From Candidatus Poseidoniaceae archaeon (GTDB lineage Archaea > Thermoplasmatota > Poseidoniia > Poseidoniales > Poseidoniaceae): 13,468 bases of DNA. Each line of letters opens with the position of its first letter. Positions within the stretch are counted from its first letter, which is position 1. The notes under the pieces were generated by a model that did not search any database, had not been told where the DNA came from, and was given only the letters and a program-made list of their open reading frames with translations. This document shows positions 774 to 12,599 of the stretch, one piece after another. The stretch spans positions 1 to 13,468 of the forward strand of contig DUHU01000016.1 of the NCBI GenBank assembly GCA_013330765.1. The letters run 5' to 3'. A program made the translations under genes and the position numbers.

Positions 774-887
774 ATGGACGTCAGGCTTGGGAGCAAAAAC
801 CGCGGCGTGCGGCTGCACGCAACGGGTTTGGTGCTGCTCATGCTGCTGAGCTTGGCCTCGCCCCTGCTCATGCCCACTGCGTCCGCT
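774..887 (+). other. Signal peptide of the giant surface protein
   Basis: Residues 1-38 contain a positively charged stretch (R4, K8, R10, R13), a hydrophobic core of Leu/Val/Met/Ala (about residues 16-33) and a small-residue c-region PTASA, predicting cleavage before H39. No lipobox cysteine is present and there is no twin-arginine motif, so export would be by Sec. An upstream ATG at 759 would simply lengthen the n-region. Confidence 0.8.
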
Positions 888-3800
888 CACGAAGACGCAG
901 GTGGTACCGTTTGGCCCATGAGCGGGAGCGAAGACACTGGATGGGTGAAACTCGACGCCGTCTCCACTGATGGAATCCAACCCGCGAGCGCGGATTGGAA
1001 CCTGACGTTCGCCCCCGGAGCCTCGCTTGACAACGTGTCCTTCCAGGTTCGTGTTTCAGGAGCGGACGGCATGGTCATCGATTCCCCACTGATGATTGCC
1101 GGTGGATCTGTTGGCTCCGCGCTCCTCGATTTGAGCAGCCAAGGATGGATGGGGCAGACCCTCGACCTCGACGGTGGCGACCCCTTCACTGGGCGAACAT
1201 CGACCAGCGGGCTTTCGTCAAGTTGGACGCTCCCTGGTGGCGCCACGGTAACCGACCTTGTGATCCAAGCCCTTGCACCGGCCGATCCGACGGTTTCGCT
1301 CAAGCCGTTGGCTTTCGAACCCGCGGCAAGTGCAACCCACCCCGATGACGGGAGGCTTTGGCTCGCCGTCGATGACCGTGTGCTTGTCGTCGATGCAGCC
1401 ATGTCCCCTCCCACCATTGATATCGTGGAAGTTCCAGACGTAGAGGCCATCATTGACCTCGAGGTGGACGTCGCCCACGGCCAATTGTTGGTCCTCGGCA
1501 CCGATGCAATGCACGCCATCGACCTGGCAAACGGCGGATTGATTCCGCTGCCGGACAACCAGAGCACCGTTGGAAGCGACAAGCCGATCCTTCGGCTGGC
1601 TGTCAACGGGACAGGCGATGTCATCGCCGTCGGCGATGCTTGCCTCCATCATCGCTCCGTTGACGGAACATGGTCCGTGCTCAGCGGCTGCAACACCAAC
1701 ACCTTCCCGATGGCCACCAACGCCAACGTCGTGGAAATGCAGATCTTCAACGGTCTTGTTCACGTCAGCCTCGAGGATGAAGGCGTGCTCCGGTACGACC
1801 CGGCAACGAGCACGTCGACAATTTGGACCACGGCCAACGTGCTGCATTCAGACGTCATCACCTCCATGGTCGAAATGGGGAACCAGATCCTCTTCGGGTC
1901 AGAAGACGCAGGGATTGGCCGATACAATCCCTCCCTGAACCTCTGGCAAGCCACGTGGTCCAGCGCCAACTGGCTGGCGGACGACCAAATCAACGGGCTT
2001 GAGGTGGTAGGAAGCGAATTGTGGGTGCTTGCGGGCTCCTCCATCCAGCGCTACGACATCAACTCGGGCGTGTTCACGACCCACAACGGCCCGTCGGATT
2101 TGGCGGACGCAGGCCTTGGCGGCGATGTCCCTGTCATGATGGCTTGGCCCACCGGCGGTGCGCGTGCGCCCAGCGACCACACCCTCCTCATCGGCGACGG
2201 TACGGGCACCTTCCTTCGCATGGCGCCCGGTGCAACGCCGATGGTGCTAAACGACCTCGTCTTGGCCACAAGCCCACCGATTTCGGAAATGACGGCCGTG
2301 GCCGCCTTTGGCGACCAGGTGCACGTCGGCGGTGACGACCTCATCGCCGTTTACAACGCAACACAGCGCCGATGGACGGGTGCAACGACCATCGTCGGTG
2401 TCCCGACGTCCATGGTCGCCACGGCCACCGACGTGTGGGTGGGCACCGAAGAAGATGGCCTGTACCGCATCGATGCAGCCACCGGCAACGCCCAGCAGTA
2501 CCAAGGGAGCGAAGCACGTTGGGACGCCATCGCTGGCTTGGCCGTGGACCAACGCGACGTGGTCATGACCCACGACGACGGAGGGGTCAGCGTGTGGAAC
2601 TTGACCGACTTGGCCAACGGCAATCCGCCGTGGGAAAGCGGCGTGACCGAAGACGTCCCCGCAGACGCCACCGGAGAAGTGGCCGTGCACAACCGTACCG
2701 CCTATTTCGCAAGCGAGGACGGGCTGCTCCGCCTGGAACTGGACGGTGGCCCGGCGTGGTTGGCTTCATGGGGCAGCACCGGGATCGACCAGTCGTTCTA
2801 CGCTCCAATCGTCGAATACCAAGGCGTGCTCCACTACGGCCTCTACGGGTACGGCGTGGTTCGAATCGACCTCGCCACCGGAGAAATCCTCTCTCCGCTG
2901 CTCGACGGAAACGGAAACGGTGCGAGCGGCGCCCTGCCGAGCGATGAGGTCTTCAGCATCATCGTCACCAACATCCGTGGCTCGGCAGAACTTGCCATCG
3001 GTACTCAATCCGGGGCCGTCTTGTGGGACGGGAACAGCGCCTACACCATCCCAGGCGGTCGGAATTGGGACGAGCGCCCCGGTCAGCACCTCGAATTCAT
3101 GGATTTGGGTTCGTATCTGTACGCCGCCACCAACCTCGGCGTCTGCCGCTGGCAGCTCGATGCTGGTGGGGGTTTGGACATCGACGAATGCCTCACGGTG
3201 TACGACGGCATGCCGAATTGGGCGACCTATTCCATCGGACACAACAGCACCCACATCTTTGGCGGCACCCTAAGCGGCGTCGGTGTCATCGACCGGAGTT
3301 CCTTCTCCGTGGTCGACACGTGGGAGACCCAAAGCGCAGACAACGCCCCTGTGGCCATCGTCAGCGACATCGCCTACATCGGCCTTGACGGCATTGGCGT
3401 GGCCCGCTGGGACCTCGTCAACTCAGCGTGGCTGAACCTCTGGACCTCCAGCGGCGTCCTCGACACCAACGGCATCACGGGCTTGGTGGCGGGCACGCAA
3501 GCCAACACGCTCTGGGTTGGGGGCGACGACGGTTTCCAACTCATCGACGTCATCAACTCGACCGAATTGGTTGACATCGAGAAGTCCAGTGGACTCTACT
3601 ATGACAACGGCGATCCGTACGACCTCATCATGATCGGCGACATGCTCCACTACAACCAACGCACGGCCTCCGACCGGATTTACCGCATCGACACCAGCGA
3701 TTACTCCTCAGCGACCAACTACATTGACATCGGCGTCCACCTCAACGAGGGAAGCCTCGACGTCGCGGGGATGGGCCGCATGGGCGACGTCATCGTCGCG

Positions 3801-6800
3801 AGCGCCGTCTCCAGTCAGTGGTGGAACACCGAAGGAAGCGGCGGCATCGTCCGATGGAACGCCACCAGCAACAGTTGGCTGCCCGACATTCTCCCAGACA
3901 CGTCCATTCAGGTGATGGAAGTCATGCAGGCCTCAAACGGCGACACGTGGATTCAGTATGGCGACGACGGTGTTGAGGTGCTCGACGCAAACGGCACCCA
4001 AGTGTTGGGCTGGTCCGCCAGTGAGACGCCTGACTTGCCCAACGGCCAAGGCGGCTATCCAATGGGTGGCGGCATGGTTGAATGGGGCGGAGACATCCTG
4101 TTCGCCTCCGAAGATGGCGTCGGTGCTTATGACCCGTCCGCGGGCACATGGTCGACGTATTGGTCGTCAACGAGCACCTCTGAAGTCTACGAACTTTGGA
4201 CCGACGGAAACGTCCTCTTCATCGGCGCCACCAGCGGCCAAGGCTGGAACCCTGACGGCGTGGTGATCATGGAGGACGCAAACGGCACCCAAACCACGGT
4301 GCTCTCCTCACAGGCCGGCGACTTCTCAAACGCTTATCCGATCAGCATCGAGGCATGCGACGGCATGGTCTGGACGGCCTTCTTCCAATTGTCTGGTGGC
4401 GCTCAAGTCATCGGCGTAGACCCGAACGGGGTTGCGTCAGACGTGGTCATCGACGGTCAGGACTTCGGGACCAACGCTCGACCGGCTGCTTTGGCGTGCT
4501 CAGGGACAGAATTGCACGTTGGCTTCTGGTCGGTCAGCGCTGGCGTCATCGTATGGGACCTGGCGACCAATCAGGTGGTCGACCAACTCACCAGTGCGGA
4601 CGGCATGAGCAACTCACCCGTCTACTACGACGCCATGGCGACGGTCGGGCCTGCAAGCGCTCCCTCAATCGCCGTCGGTTACGACACGAACAACGGTGAA
4701 GGTGGGTACGCCGTGTACGATGTCGCCAACCGCGCCCCCACCGTCCGAGAACAAGGCGCCCTCGTCACCACGGTGGACCGGGCCTCCAACGGGGCGGTTG
4801 TGTACGGCATCCCGGGCCTGAGTTCCGGCTACAGTCAAGTGGGCACGTGGTGGCCGCCCACCGGTGCATCCCTGATTGGAAGCCGAATCCAACTCAACTC
4901 AGGTGCCGTATCGGCTTTGGCCGGTTCGGGCACCACCCTCTACGCGGCCACGTACGACCCTGTCGCAGGGTTTGGAAGCTCCACCGGTGGCAGCGCGCTT
5001 TTGATTGGCGACGTAGCCAGCAACGGAACCCTGACGTGGACTGACGGCCATGTGATGCCCTCAGGCATGCGGGCAAGCTCGCTTGCCATTGGCAGCCAAG
5101 CCGTGCACGTTGCGACCGCCCCGAGAGGCGGTGGTAACGGCGGTGGGCAAGGCGTTGGTTTGCTGACCCTGGACGTGTCGAACGGCACGTGGTCCACGGC
5201 CAGCAACGGCCTTTCGAACGACCTCGACGGGTTGGCTTGGTACGGCAATGAACTCGTGACGGGGTTGGTCGGAGGCGGTAGTGGCGTCTCTGGCGTTCAA
5301 ATCTACGATCCTCCGACGGATGCCTTTGTGGACGGAGGCGTGCTCGGCGGTCTGCCCTCGAACACCGTTCTCGGTCTTTCTCGTTCTTCGACTTCTGACG
5401 TGGTGCACATCGCCACCGACGGAGGCGTGGGCCGGTTTGATCGAAGCCTGGACGGCTGGGACACCCCGATCACGGTCATCAACGGACTGCCCTCCAATAA
5501 CGTCGAGGACGTCGTCACGTGGTTCGACGCTTCAGGTGACGAGCACGTGCTCTTGGCCACGGACGGGGGCTTGTCGCTCTGGAACGCCTCCGCTGACCAG
5601 CTCACGATCACCTGGGACGATACCAACGGCTTGTTGGAAGCCTCCACATGGGGCCTCTTCCGAAACAGCACCGACGGCACGGTCCTGTTGGCCCACGACG
5701 GGCTTGGCTCGTCCCGTCCTGGTGCAACCGTCCTTGCTGCCGCTTCGTCGGCCGCAGGTGGATTCGTCGTTGACGACACCCACCGTTTCGACCAGCTCCC
5801 TTCCAACGACGTGACCGCCGTTGCATCGGATTGGTGGGGTCTCCACATCGCCACCGACAGCGGCACCATGACGCACTGGAACGCCCTCAACGAGGAGTTC
5901 GAAGAGGGCCTTGATCGGACACCGACCAACCAACCTGTCGAGCGAATCAGCAGCGACGGCACCACTGCAGTTCTCATGACGCAAAACGGGTTGGTCCTCG
6001 TCGAGGCCTCATCGGCGGGCCATGCTCTCCTCGCTTCTGAAACCGTGATTGGCGTTTCTGACGTTGGGCTCGATGGGACCGGCGCCATCTGGGCCACCAC
6101 CTTTGACGACGGGCTTGCCGCATGGGGCCCCCCTCCGGGTTACCAACCTGTACCGAGCGCAGCAAGCCTCCGTGCAACCCCGCTCAACCTCGGAATCGGT
6201 ACCGGCTTTGCGGACGTGACCGAATACCTGCATCCAGGAACCAGCATTGACCTGTTGGATTTGGTCGGGCTTCCCTCGTTGGCCCTGCCAAACGGAACCG
6301 CAGGGACGCTGACCCCCACGGCGCTCCCGTTGGTGTTCAGTTCCACCACGCAAGGTGCAGCTGTATGGGCCTCGACCGACCTGCTGCTGTGGAACGGAAC
6401 CTTCGAGATGGCAGACGATGCGTTCGTTAACCGCTTGCAAGCCGCGGTCGACACCGGTCGCATGCTCAACGGCAACCTCACCGTCGAAGGGCAATTGTTC
6501 AGCCCCGTCAATGGCTCCATGGAAGTGCGCCTCATCTACGACTGGAGCCGGACGGAAACCCCCGTTGAATTGCTCGACCTCAGCGACCGCCCCGACGATG
6601 GTGGGAGTGCGCTGCGCGCATCATGGTCGCTGGTTCACGACGAAGATTTTGCTCGCTACCTCCTCTACCTCAAGCCCGGCGGATGGGCCGTACCTCCCAC
6701 CGCTGCCGAACTTCAAACGTCCAACCTCCAACCTGACGCCGCCATCGCACTCCACAGCCGCCTCCAAGCGGACGTGTTCACCGCAGGCGGTGAACCGTTG

Positions 6801-9209
6801 ATCGACGGCCAAGACTACAGTGCCGTGGTGGTCGTTGAATACGCTGACGGGCGCCTCGGTACACCTTCCATGCCGCTTGGACCTGCGAGCCCAAGCGACG
6901 AGGTTCCTCGGCCACCCAACAGCGGCGAAGCCATGCCTTCCACCCTGAGCAATGCGGCCGACGGTGACCTCGATGTTCGATGGGAGCGTTGCACGTCGCT
7001 GGACCATGCATCCACACGACTCTATGCATCCACCGTTGAGCGAACCGACGTTGTTGGCTTGACGCCTGTGCTCGATCTACCTAAGTCAGAGGGCAACGAA
7101 ACCACCCTGACCCTGCAGCCAGGACGGGTGTACTGGATTGGATTAACGTGCGTGGACGAAGCTGGTCAGGAGAACCTCAGCGACGCCCTTATTCTTGGGC
7201 CAGTGGTCCCAACTGGAGGCCTCGATGACGGTCTTGCACCACCGCCCCTCAAGGACGTCGAGGCCACGGATGCCCCGAACGATGAAGGTGGGCGGATTTT
7301 GGTGACATGGACGCCGTCCATTGCGGTGGATTGTGCCTTCTACACCGTTTGGCTGCACGAGCTCGGTGACATTCAGAGCATCGACCAAGTGGGCCAAACC
7401 GACGGAGCTTACGCCACCCGCATCGCAGAAGCGGTGGCAGCCCTCAGGGATGGCACCCTCGCCTTCGAGGAAGCCGAAGTCGTGGCGGATTGTTCCGCCA
7501 ACGAAACGGTGGTGGACGACATCGGCGGTCGTGCGTTGGTCGACGGCCGGACCTACCTCGTGGCCGTGACCGCACATGACGTGTGGCTCAACGTGGACCT
7601 CAGCCTTGGAGACGACACGATCATCGACGACGCCATCCCGTTCAGAAACGTCATCGACGAAGGTCTTGCTCCCGAACGGTTGTTGGAGATTGAAACCTTT
7701 GACCATCCCGAGGACGACGGCCGAGCCATCGACGTCGTCTTCGCTCCTTCTGCAGCCGACGACTTCGACCATTACCTCATCTGGACCTTCACGGAGGAGG
7801 TCACCAACGTAAGCGCGTGGTACCAAGACGGGGTGTTCATGGGCGAAGTGGCGGTGTTGCGCATTGATACGCAGCTCATTGACGCAGAAGGTTCGCCGTT
7901 TGAGATCACCATCAACGAGGCCCTGCATCGGTCGGACGACGGTACGTGGTCCGTTGTGCCCGTTGAGGACGGCATGACCGTTCATGCGGTGGTCACCGTG
8001 CACGACCTTCGAGGCAACGTTCACTTGGACGGTCTGACCTCCGACGACGCACTGGCGGTGGACAACCTCGCCGACCAAGAGGCCCCAGATCGCATCGAAG
8101 AACTGGTCGCCACCGACCGACCCGAAGACGACGGAAGCGCCGTCCTGCTCGAATTCCTCCCCTCCACGGCCAGCGACGTTGCAGCATACGAGGTCTACGT
8201 GCTGAGCGCTCCGTTCAACCGGGTCAGCGAAAGCGCCAACCCGGCCTTGGTGCTTGACCGCACGCCCTCCTTCCCCGTGGTCGTTGACCGCTATTCCGAC
8301 GGCAGTGTGCTTCAGGCTGGAACGACCGCCTACCTTGCAGTGGTGGTGCGGGACGCCAGCGGAAACGCCCACCTTACGGACCTGACCACGGTGGCCATCG
8401 AACCTGTTGACGACGGCGTGGAAGACCCTGGCCTCTACCTTGACCCAATCCTTGGAATCACCGCAGCATGGCTCGATGAAGTCGACGTGCTTGTGGCATG
8501 GGAACACACGAACGATCCTTCCGTGAGGGCTTACCGCGTCTACTTCGCATCCGAATCTTTCCCGGACGTCGAAAGTGCGACCTTGGCAGGTGAAGTTACG
8601 GCATCAAACTCGTTCCGGATTTCGTCGACCTCCTTCCCCGAACTTGTGAACTCGACCGGTTGGTACATCGCCGTGACGCCCGTCGATGACACCTTCGAGC
8701 GGACGTCCGTTGAAACCGTGTTCCTCGTACCCCTGACGCAAAGTGCCAACACGGACGGCGGCGGGGACGAAGGGTTCGATTTCGCCACCTACTTGACGGG
8801 TCCCAACGCCATCATCGCGGGCCTGGTGCTCGTCACGTTCCTTCTCGCCTTGCTCGTGCTGCGACGTCGTAGCGGTCAAGGAAGCAAGACCTACACGTTG
8901 CAAGAAGCCACCTGGGGAATCCAAGAGGACGCTTTTGGACCCGTCCCTACCGCTCCCGCTGCTCCGCCGACCGCATCACCACCTGCAGCACCGGCGTCGG
9001 CCTTGGCCGCACCTCAAGCGCTCTCTGTGGACTTGTATGCTGCAGCCGAGCAACTCACTCCTGCACCCCCCCGCATGGAAGCCCCCGTGTCGCGGTCACC
9101 GTCCCCTTCAACCAACATCGATGGTTTGCTTGATGACTTGGGCCTTGAGAACCGAACACCCGCAAAGCAAGGCGGATTGGACACCTCGTTCCTCGACGAT
9201 TTGCTCTGA
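774..9209 (+). CDS. Giant secreted, membrane-anchored multi-propeller / fibronectin-III-like surface protein
   Basis: The product has about 2,811 residues, and no specific family name is recognised for the whole protein. A signal peptide (basic n-region K8-H15, hydrophobic core about 16-33, ASA before a cleavage near residue 38) is followed by a beta-rich region (about 39-190). Residues about 195-1790 form a long series of beta-propeller blade-like repeats; about 1790-1930 is a further beta-rich region; about 1930-2650 holds fibronectin-III-like units. One membrane helix (about 2678-2697) is followed by RRR and a roughly 115-residue Pro/Ala-rich tail ending in two LDDL motifs. The topology is therefore ectodomain outside, C-terminus inside. 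Ten cysteines, spaced as five pairs, and about 24 N-glycosylation sequons lie in the ectodomain. Start 774 was chosen because of the TATA spacing and the compact signal peptide; the in-frame ATG at 759 would add five residues. Function is unknown: adhesion, ligand or polymer binding, or cell-surface scaffolding are all possible. No catalytic motif was seen. Confidence 0.85.
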   Translation: MDVRLGSKNRGVRLHATGLVLLMLLSLASPLLMPTASAHEDAGGTVWPMSGSEDTGWVKLDAVSTDGIQPASADWNLTFAPGASLDNVSFQVRVSGADGMVIDSPLMIAGGSVGSALLDLSSQGWMGQTLDLDGGDPFTGRTSTSGLSSSWTLPGGATVTDLVIQALAPADPTVSLKPLAFEPAASATHPDDGRLWLAVDDRVLVVDAAMSPPTIDIVEVPDVEAIIDLEVDVAHGQLLVLGTDAMHAIDLANGGLIPLPDNQSTVGSDKPILRLAVNGTGDVIAVGDACLHHRSVDGTWSVLSGCNTNTFPMATNANVVEMQIFNGLVHVSLEDEGVLRYDPATSTSTIWTTANVLHSDVITSMVEMGNQILFGSEDAGIGRYNPSLNLWQATWSSANWLADDQINGLEVVGSELWVLAGSSIQRYDINSGVFTTHNGPSDLADAGLGGDVPVMMAWPTGGARAPSDHTLLIGDGTGTFLRMAPGATPMVLNDLVLATSPPISEMTAVAAFGDQVHVGGDDLIAVYNATQRRWTGATTIVGVPTSMVATATDVWVGTEEDGLYRIDAATGNAQQYQGSEARWDAIAGLAVDQRDVVMTHDDGGVSVWNLTDLANGNPPWESGVTEDVPADATGEVAVHNRTAYFASEDGLLRLELDGGPAWLASWGSTGIDQSFYAPIVEYQGVLHYGLYGYGVVRIDLATGEILSPLLDGNGNGASGALPSDEVFSIIVTNIRGSAELAIGTQSGAVLWDGNSAYTIPGGRNWDERPGQHLEFMDLGSYLYAATNLGVCRWQLDAGGGLDIDECLTVYDGMPNWATYSIGHNSTHIFGGTLSGVGVIDRSSFSVVDTWETQSADNAPVAIVSDIAYIGLDGIGVARWDLVNSAWLNLWTSSGVLDTNGITGLVAGTQANTLWVGGDDGFQLIDVINSTELVDIEKSSGLYYDNGDPYDLIMIGDMLHYNQRTASDRIYRIDTSDYSSATNYIDIGVHLNEGSLDVAGMGRMGDVIVASAVSSQWWNTEGSGGIVRWNATSNSWLPDILPDTSIQVMEVMQASNGDTWIQYGDDGVEVLDANGTQVLGWSASETPDLPNGQGGYPMGGGMVEWGGDILFASEDGVGAYDPSAGTWSTYWSSTSTSEVYELWTDGNVLFIGATSGQGWNPDGVVIMEDANGTQTTVLSSQAGDFSNAYPISIEACDGMVWTAFFQLSGGAQVIGVDPNGVASDVVIDGQDFGTNARPAALACSGTELHVGFWSVSAGVIVWDLATNQVVDQLTSADGMSNSPVYYDAMATVGPASAPSIAVGYDTNNGEGGYAVYDVANRAPTVREQGALVTTVDRASNGAVVYGIPGLSSGYSQVGTWWPPTGASLIGSRIQLNSGAVSALAGSGTTLYAATYDPVAGFGSSTGGSALLIGDVASNGTLTWTDGHVMPSGMRASSLAIGSQAVHVATAPRGGGNGGGQGVGLLTLDVSNGTWSTASNGLSNDLDGLAWYGNELVTGLVGGGSGVSGVQIYDPPTDAFVDGGVLGGLPSNTVLGLSRSSTSDVVHIATDGGVGRFDRSLDGWDTPITVINGLPSNNVEDVVTWFDASGDEHVLLATDGGLSLWNASADQLTITWDDTNGLLEASTWGLFRNSTDGTVLLAHDGLGSSRPGATVLAAASSAAGGFVVDDTHRFDQLPSNDVTAVASDWWGLHIATDSGTMTHWNALNEEFEEGLDRTPTNQPVERISSDGTTAVLMTQNGLVLVEASSAGHALLASETVIGVSDVGLDGTGAIWATTFDDGLAAWGPPPGYQPVPSAASLRATPLNLGIGTGFADVTEYLHPGTSIDLLDLVGLPSLALPNGTAGTLTPTALPLVFSSTTQGAAVWASTDLLLWNGTFEMADDAFVNRLQAAVDTGRMLNGNLTVEGQLFSPVNGSMEVRLIYDWSRTETPVELLDLSDRPDDGGSALRASWSLVHDEDFARYLLYLKPGGWAVPPTAAELQTSNLQPDAAIALHSRLQADVFTAGGEPLIDGQDYSAVVVVEYADGRLGTPSMPLGPASPSDEVPRPPNSGEAMPSTLSNAADGDLDVRWERCTSLDHASTRLYASTVERTDVVGLTPVLDLPKSEGNETTLTLQPGRVYWIGLTCVDEAGQENLSDALILGPVVPTGGLDDGLAPPPLKDVEATDAPNDEGGRILVTWTPSIAVDCAFYTVWLHELGDIQSIDQVGQTDGAYATRIAEAVAALRDGTLAFEEAEVVADCSANETVVDDIGGRALVDGRTYLVAVTAHDVWLNVDLSLGDDTIIDDAIPFRNVIDEGLAPERLLEIETFDHPEDDGRAIDVVFAPSAADDFDHYLIWTFTEEVTNVSAWYQDGVFMGEVAVLRIDTQLIDAEGSPFEITINEALHRSDDGTWSVVPVEDGMTVHAVVTVHDLRGNVHLDGLTSDDALAVDNLADQEAPDRIEELVATDRPEDDGSAVLLEFLPSTASDVAAYEVYVLSAPFNRVSESANPALVLDRTPSFPVVVDRYSDGSVLQAGTTAYLAVVVRDASGNAHLTDLTTVAIEPVDDGVEDPGLYLDPILGITAAWLDEVDVLVAWEHTNDPSVRAYRVYFASESFPDVESATLAGEVTASNSFRISSTSFPELVNSTGWYIAVTPVDDTFERTSVETVFLVPLTQSANTDGGGDEGFDFATYLTGPNAIIAGLVLVTFLLALLVLRRRSGQGSKTYTLQEATWGIQEDAFGPVPTAPAAPPTASPPAAPASALAAPQALSVDLYAAAEQLTPAPPRMEAPVSRSPSPSTNIDGLLDDLGLENRTPAKQGGLDTSFLDDLL
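1355..6145 (+). repeat. About 35 degenerate beta-propeller blade repeats (protein level)
   Basis: A recurring pattern is seen roughly every 45 residues: a hydrophobic strand ending in G or A, then a D/E/G-rich turn, a strand ending in Y/W/F/I plus D or N, and often a W about six residues later. Clear examples are ILFGSEDAGIGRYNPSLNLW (from about 1887), VWVGTEEDGLYRID (from about 2433), ILFASEDGVGAYDPSAGTW (from about 4098), VHIATDGGVGRFD (from about 5403) and LHIATDSGTMTHWN (from about 5841). Three units near 5352, 5487 and 5796 begin with LPSN, the entry motif typical of the two-component-regulator propeller family (Reg_prop). By eye there are about 35 units, which would suit five seven-bladed rings; the grouping into rings is inference. 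Confidence 0.7.
3984..4292 (+). repeat. 18-bp perfect direct repeat inside the propeller region
   Basis: The 18 bases at 3984-4001 recur exactly at 4275-4292, in the same frame, encoding DANGTQ both times. The copies are 291 bases (97 codons) apart, close to two blade lengths. Flanking residues are loosely similar (GV before, D then N then YP after), which fits an old two-blade duplication that has since diverged, though chance cannot be excluded. Confidence 0.5.
6570..8730 (+). repeat. Tandem fibronectin-III-like units with a D-x-P-[DN]-[DE]-G signature
   Basis: Four strong copies of an acidic turn open the units: DRPDDGG (6585), DAPNDEGG (7269), DHPEDDG (7701) and DRPEDDG (8115). Each is followed by a strand such as LVTWTPS or VVFAPS and then by a D..Y.hY/W strand (ARYLLYL, AFYTVWL, DHYLIWT, AAYEVYV). 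Weaker units are visible near 6930-7045 and 8454-8555. The pattern is that of bacterial and archaeal fibronectin type III domains. Spacing of about 140 residues is longer than a standard domain of about 90, so loop insertions or extra strands are present. The position between the propellers and the membrane suggests a stalk. Confidence 0.65.
8805..8870 (+). other. C-terminal transmembrane helix and basic stop-transfer residues of the giant protein
   Basis: An uninterrupted hydrophobic run rich in Ile, Leu, Val, Ala and Phe (about residues 2678-2697) is followed directly by RRR. With the cleaved signal peptide this predicts a type I membrane protein, with about 2,640 residues outside and about 115 inside. 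No sorting motif of the archaeosortase type (PGF) was seen, so anchoring appears to be by the helix itself. Confidence 0.85.
9123..9206 (+). other. Tandem LDDL motifs at the cytoplasmic C-terminus
   Basis: The tail ends with two similar short motifs, GLLDDLG (9123-9143, residues 2784-2790) and FLDDLL (9189-9206, residues 2806-2811), the second being the extreme C-terminus. They are separated by a polar linker and preceded by a disordered-looking Pro/Ala/Ser-rich stretch. Such a layout suits a linear docking site for a cytoplasmic partner or a sorting tag. This role is inference from layout only. Confidence 0.6.
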
Positions 9210-9252: not shown

Positions 9253-9999
9253 ATGCCTGCCGGACCGCGTGAAGCCGTCTTTACCACCCTCTTGTTCCGG
9301 CCGGAGCGAGGCGTGGCGGACCTTCACCTCCACCTTGCTCGCTTGCAGGTCCACGCTCAGGCCTTGCGCCTGAACCCAGACATGGACACCGCCCTTGAGG
9401 CGGTCACCGAGGCCTGTCAAGGCCGTTTGACGGAGGGTTTGGTCCGCCTCACTTGGTCCAACGACGAATGGACATGCTCCGTCCGCGAACGGCTGTCCCT
9501 CACCGACGTGGACGCCATTACAGCTCCAGCCCCCAGGTGGGCGGGCAGGATCAACGGGACGAAGCACGGCGCTTGGTCGTGGGCGTCTGAAATGGCCGAA
9601 AAAGGTGAGGCCATGGGGGCCGATGCGGTCCTGATGGTGCATGACCACCGCATCGTCGATGAACGTCGGGCGACGCCTTTGTTGTTGGACGACGACGGCG
9701 TGGTATGGGCCGCTCCCGAAGAAGACGGGGGCGTGGCGAGCATCACGCTGAAGACCATGACCAACGCGCTGTCGGCTGCGGGCCTGCCCGTGCAGCGAGG
9801 GCACCTCAACGAACGGCGTGTTGCACGCGCGACCGCCATGGTGCTGGTCGGCACCGGACTTGGTGTGGCCTCTGTGGACACCGTCGACGGGGTGACCTTC
9901 GCCTCTCCGAGCCAACGTTTGGTCGACGTGTGCCGTGTTGCTTACGAGGCCCACATGGCCGATGAAGCCACGTGGACCAGCCTCGGAGGGGCCCGATGA
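9253..9999 (+). CDS. pabC: Aminotransferase class IV protein, probable 4-amino-4-deoxychorismate lyase
   Basis: The product has 248 residues, a usual length for PabC. Such enzymes use pyridoxal phosphate to release pyruvate from aminodeoxychorismate and leave p-aminobenzoate. Family landmarks are HLARL (H27, R30), a candidate PLP-binding lysine in GTKHG (K104), a conserved glutamate E137 after HRIV, and the late segment VLVGTGLGVASVDTVDG. The assignment to PabC rather than a branched-chain aminotransferase rests on the short length and on the overlap with the aminodeoxychorismate synthase gene (last four bases shared, ATGA). Oddities: the usual N-L-F after the conserved glutamate reads P-L-L here, and the common G-I-T-R is S-I-T-L. 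The fold assignment is good, and the specific reaction rests largely on context. Confidence 0.8.
   Translation: MPAGPREAVFTTLLFRPERGVADLHLHLARLQVHAQALRLNPDMDTALEAVTEACQGRLTEGLVRLTWSNDEWTCSVRERLSLTDVDAITAPAPRWAGRINGTKHGAWSWASEMAEKGEAMGADAVLMVHDHRIVDERRATPLLLDDDGVVWAAPEEDGGVASITLKTMTNALSAAGLPVQRGHLNERRVARATAMVLVGTGLGVASVDTVDGVTFASPSQRLVDVCRVAYEAHMADEATWTSLGGAR
9985..9991 (+). promoter_or_regulatory. Ribosome binding site deciding the pabB-pabA start
   Basis: GGAGGGG at 9985-9991 is a strong Shine-Dalgarno sequence. It lies four to six bases before the ATG at 9996 and seven bases before a second ATG at 9999. It rules against the in-frame ATG at 9972, which lies upstream of it. The start overlaps the preceding stop as ATGA, so translation of the two genes is probably coupled. 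Confidence 0.75.
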
Positions 10000-12176
10000 T
10001 GGACGTTATTTGCACGGTTGAGGGGTTGCGCAAGCACGGACAACTCGGCTCGACAGCGGAGGCCTTCGGTGCACCGGACGAAGTGCTCCTCATGTCCACA
10101 GGGCCGGCGAGCCACTTGGCCAAGCATTCGATGATCGCCAGACCACCACGTCGTCGGGCCGTAATTCGTCAGCCAAAGGGCACCCTTCCAGTGAAGATGA
10201 CCAACAATCCGCTGGAGGGCGAACCCGTATGGAGAACGCCTGAGATGCTTCATGCCACGATGCAAACCTGGCGTGACGGCGAATGGCATGACGATGAACG
10301 GATTGAGGCCCCCGACCTCGAAGTGCTGCTGCGGACACTCGAGTCCGAGATGTTGGCACCAGAGCCGTTCGTCACTCAGGTGGAAGGGTGGCCGCAACGC
10401 TCCTTCCTCAGCGGTGCCTTCGCCTACGATTTGGTCCAGTGGACCCAGCCGATTACGATTCACCATCCTCCTGCTCCAGACGCCCTTTTGGCCGTTCTTT
10501 GGGCGGTGGATGGCGCCCTGCTCATCGACCATGCCACGGGGTTGGCCCACAGGCTCCACACCGAAGGAGATGCATGGGCAGAGCACGTCCACCCCGCAGA
10601 ACCGCGGAGCACCGCACCTCCCTCAACGCATCACACCCCGACGGAGAGTTCCATGGACGACGCACGCCATGCTGAGGCGATCGAACAGGTCAGGCAGGCC
10701 ATCGTCGAAGGACGCATGTACCAGGTGAACATTGGTCGGCGGTGGACGGCCCCGCTTCCAGACGACCCGTGGGAGGTCATGCGGCGCTTGCTTGTGGGAA
10801 ATCCTGCCCCATTTTCTGCATGGACCTGGGCGCCCGATTTGGACCATCATTTGCTTTCAAGCTCGCCCGAATCCCTTCTTCGGATTCATGCCGGGAAAGC
10901 CATGGCATCGCCGATCAAAGGCACCTACCCTCGCGGCAGCGATGCCTTGGAAGAACAGGCCCTTCGCCGTGCGCTGGTTGAGGACGAGAAAGAAACGGCC
11001 GAACATCGGATGCTTGTGGACCTGATGCGAAACGACTTGGGCGCCATCAGCCGACCAGGCTCGGTCAGGATTGAGCGGTACGACGTGGAAGCGTACGCCA
11101 CGGTCCAGCACCTTGTGTCCCACGTCGGTTCAACCCTCACCGTCGACCCACCTGCCGCCTTTGCGTCCGTGTTTCCGGGCGGCTCCATCACAGGATGTCC
11201 TCGAACCGTCGTGTGTGCCGCCATCGACGCCATGGAGCATGAACCCCGGCGGTTTTGGTGCGGATCCATCGGGTGGTGGGACCCTGACGGCCATCATGGT
11301 GCATGGAACATCCTGATTCGAACCATGCAAGTTCGCCACGAAGGCCAGCAGCGCATGGCGGACGTGCTCGCTGGCGGGGGCATCACCATTGGGAGCGTGG
11401 CCGAACGTGAAATCGAGGAAGCGGTCTGGAAGGCGGACGCATTGCTCAGCGCCGCCGGTTGGAGCTCGCCCCGTAGCAGCACGCGAGGCGTCTTGCGGAT
11501 CACGCCGCTCAGCGTTCCTCACGGCACGCCCCTCGGAGGACGCTTGGGGCGACGGCGTGAGCGGCCCCATGGCACCGTGGTGCTGGTGGACAACCTCGAT
11601 TCGTTCACGCACAACATCGCCCATGCCATCATGCAACTCGGCCACGATGTGCACGTGCTGCAGGGGCGTGGCCCAAAGGGACCTACAGACGTGGAAGAAA
11701 GCGTGAGCAGGTTGCTGAGTGCCGCACCAAGCCACGTGTTGTTGGGACCTGGACCTGGTCGTCCGGAGGAAGCCAAGTTTTCCATGCGGTTGGCCCAAAT
11801 GGCCCTTCAAAGCCACACCCCGCCCCTTCTCGGCATTTGCCTCGGACACCAGGCCCTCGGCCTTGCCGCAGGTGGCCGCATCGTTCACGACCCGCATGGA
11901 CCCGTCCATGGACGTCCCGTTCACGTTGTTCATGACGGCACCGGCCTGTTCCGCGATGTGTCGGGTCGCACCACGCGGATGGTGCGTTACAACTCCTTGG
12001 TGGTGGAGGGCACGGTGGCCAGCGGTCTACAGGTAAACGCACGCTCAGGACACGTCACCATGGGCTTCCGTTCCACGGACGGTCGCGTCCATGGACTGCA
12101 AGGCCACCCCGAATCCATCGGCAGCGAAGATGGTGACCGGCTGCTGCGGACTTTCCTCGACGCAGCGCATGGTTGA
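9996..12176 (+). CDS. pabBA: Fused aminodeoxychorismate synthase: PabB (N-terminal) - PabA glutamine amidotransferase (C-terminal)
   Basis: The 726-residue protein would convert chorismate and glutamine to 4-amino-4-deoxychorismate. Residues about 1-485 are the chorismate-binding PabB part, with YQVN, SSSPES (E292), PIKGT (K308), DLMRNDLG (about 343-350), FPGGSITG, IRT, GGGI and the ending E472-xx-E475-xxx-K479. The lysine in PIKGT marks aminodeoxychorismate synthases; anthranilate synthases have alanine there. Residues about 525-726 are a class I glutamine amidotransferase, with DNLDSFTHN, GPGPGRP, the nucleophile C615 in GICLGHQ, and H704 and E706 in HPES, so the triad is intact. A basic, Pro/Ser-rich linker of about 35 residues joins them. 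The family motif TGAPK reads TGCPR (R403). The domain order is that of TrpE-TrpG fusions and the reverse of plant, fungal and actinobacterial PabA-PabB fusions. Start 9996 is set by the ribosome site and ATGA overlap. Confidence 0.9.
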   Translation: MMDVICTVEGLRKHGQLGSTAEAFGAPDEVLLMSTGPASHLAKHSMIARPPRRRAVIRQPKGTLPVKMTNNPLEGEPVWRTPEMLHATMQTWRDGEWHDDERIEAPDLEVLLRTLESEMLAPEPFVTQVEGWPQRSFLSGAFAYDLVQWTQPITIHHPPAPDALLAVLWAVDGALLIDHATGLAHRLHTEGDAWAEHVHPAEPRSTAPPSTHHTPTESSMDDARHAEAIEQVRQAIVEGRMYQVNIGRRWTAPLPDDPWEVMRRLLVGNPAPFSAWTWAPDLDHHLLSSSPESLLRIHAGKAMASPIKGTYPRGSDALEEQALRRALVEDEKETAEHRMLVDLMRNDLGAISRPGSVRIERYDVEAYATVQHLVSHVGSTLTVDPPAAFASVFPGGSITGCPRTVVCAAIDAMEHEPRRFWCGSIGWWDPDGHHGAWNILIRTMQVRHEGQQRMADVLAGGGITIGSVAEREIEEAVWKADALLSAAGWSSPRSSTRGVLRITPLSVPHGTPLGGRLGRRRERPHGTVVLVDNLDSFTHNIAHAIMQLGHDVHVLQGRGPKGPTDVEESVSRLLSAAPSHVLLGPGPGRPEEAKFSMRLAQMALQSHTPPLLGICLGHQALGLAAGGRIVHDPHGPVHGRPVHVVHDGTGLFRDVSGRTTRMVRYNSLVVEGTVASGLQVNARSGHVTMGFRSTDGRVHGLQGHPESIGSEDGDRLLRTFLDAAHG

Positions 12177-12212: not shown

Positions 12213-12599
12213 ATGCCACTCTGCCGATCCTGCAACGGGACCTTCGCGCGGGAGTATTTCATCCATGGAAATGGACCACGAACGCAAATCTGCGTGCGTT
12301 GTGCTCTCGACCAAGGCCTCGTGACAAAAGAAGAGGTCCCGACCTTTTTCGATGAGGGGCTCATCGCTTCCCGCCTTTCAGTGGTGTCCCGTCGATGGGG
12401 GCCTGCAATCACCCTCATCATGGGCTGGACCTTTTGGTCGACCTTCTTGACCGGAGTGAGGCCTTGGGGGACCTACGTGCTGGTCTTGCTCGGCATCGGT
12501 ACGTTGCTCCTGCCCGCTCAGATCCTGCTTTTCCGTGCGAAGTACACCAGCGACATGTCGCGGTTAACGCCGTCCCACGAACGGCCCAAAGGCCACTGA
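12213..12599 (+). CDS. Small zinc-ribbon protein with two transmembrane helices, function unknown
   Basis: The 128-residue product begins almost at once with CxxC (C4, C7), followed after 19 residues by a second CxxC (C27, C30), a treble-clef or zinc-ribbon arrangement that should hold one zinc ion. Two hydrophobic segments follow (about 62-81 and 86-107), separated by a very short loop (VRPWG), so a hairpin in the membrane is likely with the zinc ribbon and the basic C-terminal tail (KYTSDM...ERPKGH) on the same side, probably the cytoplasm. A good ribosome site supports the start. It is the last gene of the plus-strand run and ends one base from the convergent GTPase gene. No named family was recognised. 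A membrane-linked adaptor or regulator is possible, but nothing in the sequence shows a specific partner. Confidence 0.8.
   Translation: MPLCRSCNGTFAREYFIHGNGPRTQICVRCALDQGLVTKEEVPTFFDEGLIASRLSVVSRRWGPAITLIMGWTFWSTFLTGVRPWGTYVLVLLGIGTLLLPAQILLFRAKYTSDMSRLTPSHERPKGH

Follow-up and report, generated by a model that had tools for sequence, protein, structure and literature searches.

A giant, probably surface-located propeller protein of the archaeal order Poseidoniales with a near-invariant tail peptide and an apparently mosaic first ring

RESULTS AND DISCUSSION

Nearly all sampled genomes of the archaeal order Poseidoniales carry a gene for a giant protein that combines about 35 propeller blades, FN3-like units, one membrane helix and a cytoplasmic tail with a near-invariant end. 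We analysed the copy in the window, the whole stretch of 13,468 nucleotides from a Candidatus Poseidoniaceae archaeon (contig DUHU01000016.1). Judged by its sequence features the protein is probably located at the cell surface, and we see an even chance that it serves the order as a membrane-anchored, stalked surface recognition or coat protein with an exchangeable tip. According to this proposal the FN3-like units would raise a head of ∼35 blades, arranged in several propeller rings, off the membrane; the rings would bind ligands or adjacent surface proteins, and the fixed C-terminal peptide would dock on a partner in the cytoplasm that keeps the protein in place or gathers it into clusters. 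Constraint on the stalk and the tail would resemble that on a housekeeping component, whereas part of the distal ring 1 would be swapped between lineages as alleles. Such an exchange would be expected of a tip that encounters viruses, grazers or ligands that vary; we infer the membrane-distal position of ring 1, ligand binding by the rings and the selective cause. Little has been described so far of the cell envelope in these ocean archaea, which are abundant and uncultured. With its near-universal and order-restricted occurrence, its fixed tail peptide and its mosaic tip, the giant protein would be a concrete target for surface imaging and a lead both for the search for virus receptors and for the question of how large surface structures of an archaeon are anchored internally. 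Near-universality, conserved tail peptide and allelic mosaic all go beyond the preliminary description of this DNA.

Gene and domain layout

The reading frame runs without interruption to position 9209 of the window; ATG 774 is a plausible start codon, and a second in-frame ATG lies at 759. The preliminary description had reported one gene of 8.4 kb, and this gene is intact. A merged or frameshifted gene can be ruled out, because the same-genus relatives L002–L005 each carry one full-length ORF with 83–84% identity to P0001; many of the listed matches in other relatives are single full-length ORFs as well. P0001 by itself matched no Pfam (E ≤ 1) and no NCBIfam (E ≤ 0.1) model, and the domain assignments in Table 1 therefore rest on relatives and structure. 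The Reg_prop profile gave no score anywhere in the window's own genome. Pfam finds no enzyme domain in P0001 (E ≤ 1), in agreement with the earlier statement that no enzyme motif was seen. A viral origin of the gene was considered and dropped, as P0001 matched no PHROGs family.

Table 1. Features of the giant gene and its product in the window
Feature	Residues	Positions	Strand	Basis or remark
Giant gene, protein P0001	2811 aa	774..9209	+	ORF and homologues
Signal peptide	1–38	774..887	+	hydropathy ∼14–38; cleavage after ASA (ASA|HE) inferred from motif
N-terminal domain	39–180	888..1313	+	conserved in alignment A1; low pLDDT
Ring 1, seven four-stranded blades	∼171–500	1284..2273	+	
Variable, mosaic part of ring 1	201–400	1374..1973	+	identity lowest at 201–350
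Ring 2, apparently eight blades	∼499–843	2268..3302	+	501–600 variable
Blades 16–35, without ring assignment	844–1795	3303..6158	+	consensus, AF2 models, hhalign
Domain X, conserved	1796–1929	6159..6560	+	AF2 pLDDT mostly 33–52
Six FN3-like units	1930–2655	6561..8738	+	hhalign; Pfam fn3 in 3/17 relatives
Membrane helix	∼2674–2696	8793..8861	+	hydropathy
Cytoplasmic tail: TLQEATWGIQ (juxtamembrane), variable Pro/Ala-rich linker, C-terminal peptide	115 residues	8862..9206	+	
C-terminal decapeptide LDTSFLDDLL		9177..9206	+	

Hydropathy gives an N-terminal signal segment, one C-terminal membrane segment and a short tail, as had been described. The stalk of 'five or six' FN3-like units could be specified to six segments, which resemble each other in 13 of 15 hhalign pairs (probability at least 80; the exceptions are F1–F2 with 18 and F2–F4 with 45); the Pfam fn3 matches in relatives confirm the repeats. 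Five segments of the propeller part were similar in all ten pairwise hhalign comparisons (probability 96–99). Two conserved regions, residues 39–180 and 1796–1929, are neither propeller nor FN3 and were absent from the earlier description; by hhalign they are like no other segment of the protein, and their models are of low confidence. A relationship of the N-terminal domain to domain X or to the other surface protein mentioned below was not supported (hhalign probabilities 0.4 and 1.3). Four cysteine pairs are invariant in 31 relatives (791/806, 1195/1242, 2073/2126 and 2187/2240 in P0001 numbering) and could form disulfides.

A hand count on the consensus of 31 relatives yielded 35 blade-like units, and two AF2 models, whose secondary structure was likewise counted by hand, yielded 35 three- or four-stranded units, so that the proposed number of about 35 blades is reproduced. 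The proposed arrangement in five seven-bladed rings is not supported, because ring 2, for which seven blades were rejected, finds its best matches among eight-bladed propellers, and because 20 blades are without ring assignment. AF2 predicts two closed rings, one with seven and one apparently with eight blades; model 2 begins inside a ring. A doubtful further possibility is that blades 27–32 form a six-bladed ring inserted into another ring.

Relation to known proteins

Among solved structures, the propellers of Bacteroides two-component sensors come closest in sequence profile, with BT4663 (4a2l) at E 8.4e-33, and PF07494 (Reg_prop) was found in 8 of the 17 relatives scanned. Both results bear out the earlier assignment of the blades to the sensor-kinase type. 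The accompanying remark that the protein contains no kinase also holds: no such Pfam family was detected in P0001 or the 17 relatives. The ectodomains of Bacteroides hybrid sensors (HTCS; BT4663, BT3049 (3v9f) and BT4673 (3va6/3ott)) share Reg_prop-type blades with the giant protein (E 8.4e-33 to 3.8e-15) and are among the top Foldseek matches of both AF2 models. However, they comprise ∼750 residues compared with ∼2600 in the giant protein, which unlike them has six FN3-like units and no kinase or regulator; histidine kinase, receiver and DNA-binding output domains were absent from the Pfam results for P0001 (E ≤ 1) and 17 relatives (E ≤ 0.01). The Y_Y_Y domain is not among the seven Pfam families found in these relatives (E ≤ 0.01), and domain X is possibly a diverged form of it.

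A second likeness concerns PorZ of the type IX secretion system (5m11). Its family PF21544 was detected in 8 of 17 relatives and Foldseek matched it to model 1 with E 1.7e-16; in 243 genomes of the phylum PF21544 scored above the cut-off in 13, in all 13 cases on the contig of the giant gene. The match is confined to the propeller part. PorZ differs in size, and the single membrane helix and the archaeal origin are particular to the giant protein, whose C-terminus is a helix plus tail; no type IX C-terminal sorting domain was matched by Pfam in P0001 or 17 relatives. The ectodomains of ROS1 and Sevenless were Foldseek matches of both models. Like the giant protein, these receptors combine propellers, FN3 units and one membrane helix, but their kinase is missing from it, and since whole-chain superposition is poor (TM ≤ 0.18), the modelled resemblance concerns parts of the chain and does not indicate homology over its full length. 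In the Sulfolobus S-layer a canopy is raised by a stalk; there two proteins (SlaA and SlaB) are used instead of one chain, and the comparison is by architecture alone. The PGF-CTERM motif had no matches in the window's genome, and 22 of 40 genomes have other matches; the giant protein ends in LDTSFLDDLL. Relatives are named 'fibronectin type III domain-containing protein' or 'hypothetical protein' in some databases.

Occurrence and gene neighbourhood

The homologue search in Poseidoniales genomes that had been suggested returned full-length relatives, with the gene matched in 189 of 193 sampled genomes and in all 21 genera of the order. A search of the family, which overlaps this set, matched 137 of 145 genomes and 11 of 11 genera. 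The gene is also kept in small genomes of 1.2–1.3 Mb. Profile A5 (residues 1640–2560) matched 101 of 292 genomes of the phylum, 81 of them inside the order (one, G040, weakly) and 20 outside. The listed matches in these 20 are partial (the best, E 2e-33, lies in the FN3-like part), and the sister order gave none in 21 genomes; on these sequence searches the complete architecture is therefore seen in the order Poseidoniales only. The titles of 78 named loci read Euryarchaeota, Poseidoniales, Thermoplasmatota or similar, except for L070, which is titled Rhodobiaceae bacterium yet has the same archaeal gene neighbours and is probably a mis-binned contig. A published description of the giant protein was found neither in literature searches outside the subscription journals nor in passages of PMC6864105, PMC6461757, PMC6336850, PMC9723583, PMC7618865, PMC7291766 and PMC6741140. 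In the parts available, Rinke et al. (PMC6461757), Tully (PMC6336850), Orellana et al. (PMC6864105), Pereira et al. (PMC6741140) and PMC9723583 attribute adhesion, where they mention it at all, to flagella, thrombospondin or flotillin, and leave the giant protein unmentioned.

The giant gene is followed by pabC and pabBA in every one of the 52 named loci whose downstream sequence reaches 3.2 kb or more (12 others are too short) and in the one further locus of family f1. Among ten loci of family f2, with shorter flanks, seven have pabC and pabBA, two (L129 and L131) have a gene for a small membrane protein instead, and one ends at once. Within the window these genes lie at 9253–12176, the first for an aminotransferase of class IV and the second a fusion of chorismate-binding and glutamine amidotransferase domains (pabC and pabBA-like), conserved beside the giant gene. 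A small protein encoded at 12213–12599, with two CxxC-like pairs, hydrophobic segments and no Pfam match, is conserved in position. Upstream of the giant gene lies pyruvate kinase or a fusion of malic enzyme and phosphotransacetylase; in several lineages (L094:7422–9917 and relatives) the fusion gene and the giant gene point away from each other. These neighbours are metabolic, and no functional link of the giant gene to pyruvate kinase, the malic enzyme fusion or the pab genes was seen.

The tail peptide

The motif [ILV]DT[ST]FLDDL[LF] ends all 121 proteins compared, namely the query and the best 120 of 127 relatives from the protein search. An alignment of 19 tails across both families shows a poorly conserved linker followed by the C-terminal peptide, in which S, D and L are invariant. 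Of 86 ORFs from the loci that end in a stop and span 900 codons or more, 79 carry the motif; of the remaining seven, two were read as other genes, four as ends that are broken or unreadable, and L132 as a variant. A fixed end behind a free linker is typical of docking peptides, and the near-invariant end of the tail is a putative docking peptide for a cytoplasmic partner. We also considered whether the peptide is common to other membrane proteins; none of 30 listed pattern matches that were examined supports this (17 are C-terminal and by context the tail of the giant gene, one lies in a 44-codon frame and 12 are internal to other ORFs).

Constraint and the mosaic tip

Same-genus dN/dS values of the giant gene were 0.08–0.13 in 10 of 10 pairs, next to 0.08–0.12 for PabBA, with some dS values above 1. 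Residues 201–400 fall into two classes with ∼40–70% identity in genomes that are 80–97% alike elsewhere. In 731 pairs of 113 proteins the lowest-identity windows were 251–350 (mean 0.63–0.64) and 551–600 (0.65), with near-equal values at 2201–2250 in FN3 unit 3 (0.65), 2651–2700 at the membrane (0.66) and 1751–1800 (0.68); in PabBA, too, identity falls as low as 0.38 in windows of 50 residues. Expressed as local minus remaining identity, the loss is strongest in ring 1 and where ring 2 begins (to −0.42 and −0.44), whereas five further segments reach −0.05 to −0.28. At 1301–1450, local minus overall identity has a larger spread (SD 0.078) than in ring 1 (0.060). Protein P0052 resembles the distant P0024 at ∼220–400 and the close P0048 elsewhere.

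Trees (LG+G4) were calculated for separate segments, the tested clades being picked after the identities had been seen. For residues 201–400, L042 groups with L040 and L041 (100/99) and {L042,L043,L044} is rejected (AU p 1.7e-59). For the stalk (1800–2650), {L042,L043,L044} is recovered (100/100) and {L040,L041,L042} is rejected (p 5e-72); the control genes PabBA, PabC and YchF also join L042 to L043 and L044, and pair L040 with L041. Residues 850–1750 group L044 with L040 and L041 (95/96), and residues 601–800 decide no grouping. Since the ring 1 tree conflicts with both the stalk tree and the grouping of neighbouring genes, part of ring 1 appears, on sequence evidence, to have been exchanged between lineages, with tip alleles recombining. 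The main caveats are the post hoc choice of groups and chimerism. The mosaic could be an artefact of chimeric metagenome assemblies, with a tip that is merely fast-evolving: every named record is a MAG or uncultured assembly, and L044 is suspect for an odd patch near alignment column 1760 that is unlike all of the five other same-genus sequences and may reflect a frameshift pair or assembly join. However, the conflicts are seen in separate lineages, and the clusters P0052, P0048 and P0024 contain 76, 125 and 332 member sequences, and we regard an artefact as unlikely.

Possible roles

A competitor of a recognition or coat protein with exchangeable tip is a structural coat, a substitute for an S-layer in which stalk and canopy would form one chain and neighbouring heads a lattice. 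The presence of the gene in nearly all sampled genomes, including the small ones mentioned above, and the strong constraint would suit such a role, as would the finding that the S-layer family PF07752 matched in none of 40 genomes, with Methanosarcina acetivorans matching as control; however, PF07752 is the sole S-layer family behind this absence. As a gauge of very high expression, codon usage of the giant gene lies above the background mean in eight of nine genomes but below the mean of ribosomal proteins in all of them, which weakens the S-layer reading or leaves it undecided, and we regard it as unlikely. Equally doubtful to us is an extended version, an order-defining outer coat whose one-chain stalk and canopy would be locked from inside by the tail peptide and whose ring 1 would be an exchangeable allele cassette, its diversity maintained by viruses that take it as their receptor.

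A transmembrane sensor, in which a ligand of the propellers would be signalled via the tail to a separate cytoplasmic partner, could account for the near-invariant tail peptide and for hybrid two-component sensors providing the nearest solved propellers by sequence. Against it, kinase, receiver and Y_Y_Y domains are absent in 17 of 17 scanned relatives (E 0.01) and no linked regulator was found in the conserved neighbourhood; such a function seems quite improbable. The protein might also be an adhesin or a scaffold that captures particles and polymers as substrates. Propeller plus FN3 architecture is common among binding proteins, and the order is described, in the parts of the literature available, as partly particle-associated. 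But no binding motif was found, and the gene is kept in nearly every genus, whereas the same partial sources describe adhesion traits as varying by family and genus; we consider this role highly unlikely.

Further copies and a second surface protein

Some genomes of the family contain a second copy of the giant gene (L124–L127) with the tail (V/I)DVSFLD(D/E)LL; pab neighbours were not seen as far as the flanks reach, the flank being sufficient only in L124. Contig C7 of genome G000 encodes another protein of probable surface location, 1434 aa long (L189:2176–6480), with FG-GAP repeats, one membrane helix and an acidic tail, whose FN3-like unit resembles the stalk of the giant protein (hhalign 95). 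ORFs of ∼1400–1480 aa with similar partial matches occur in many family f1 genomes.
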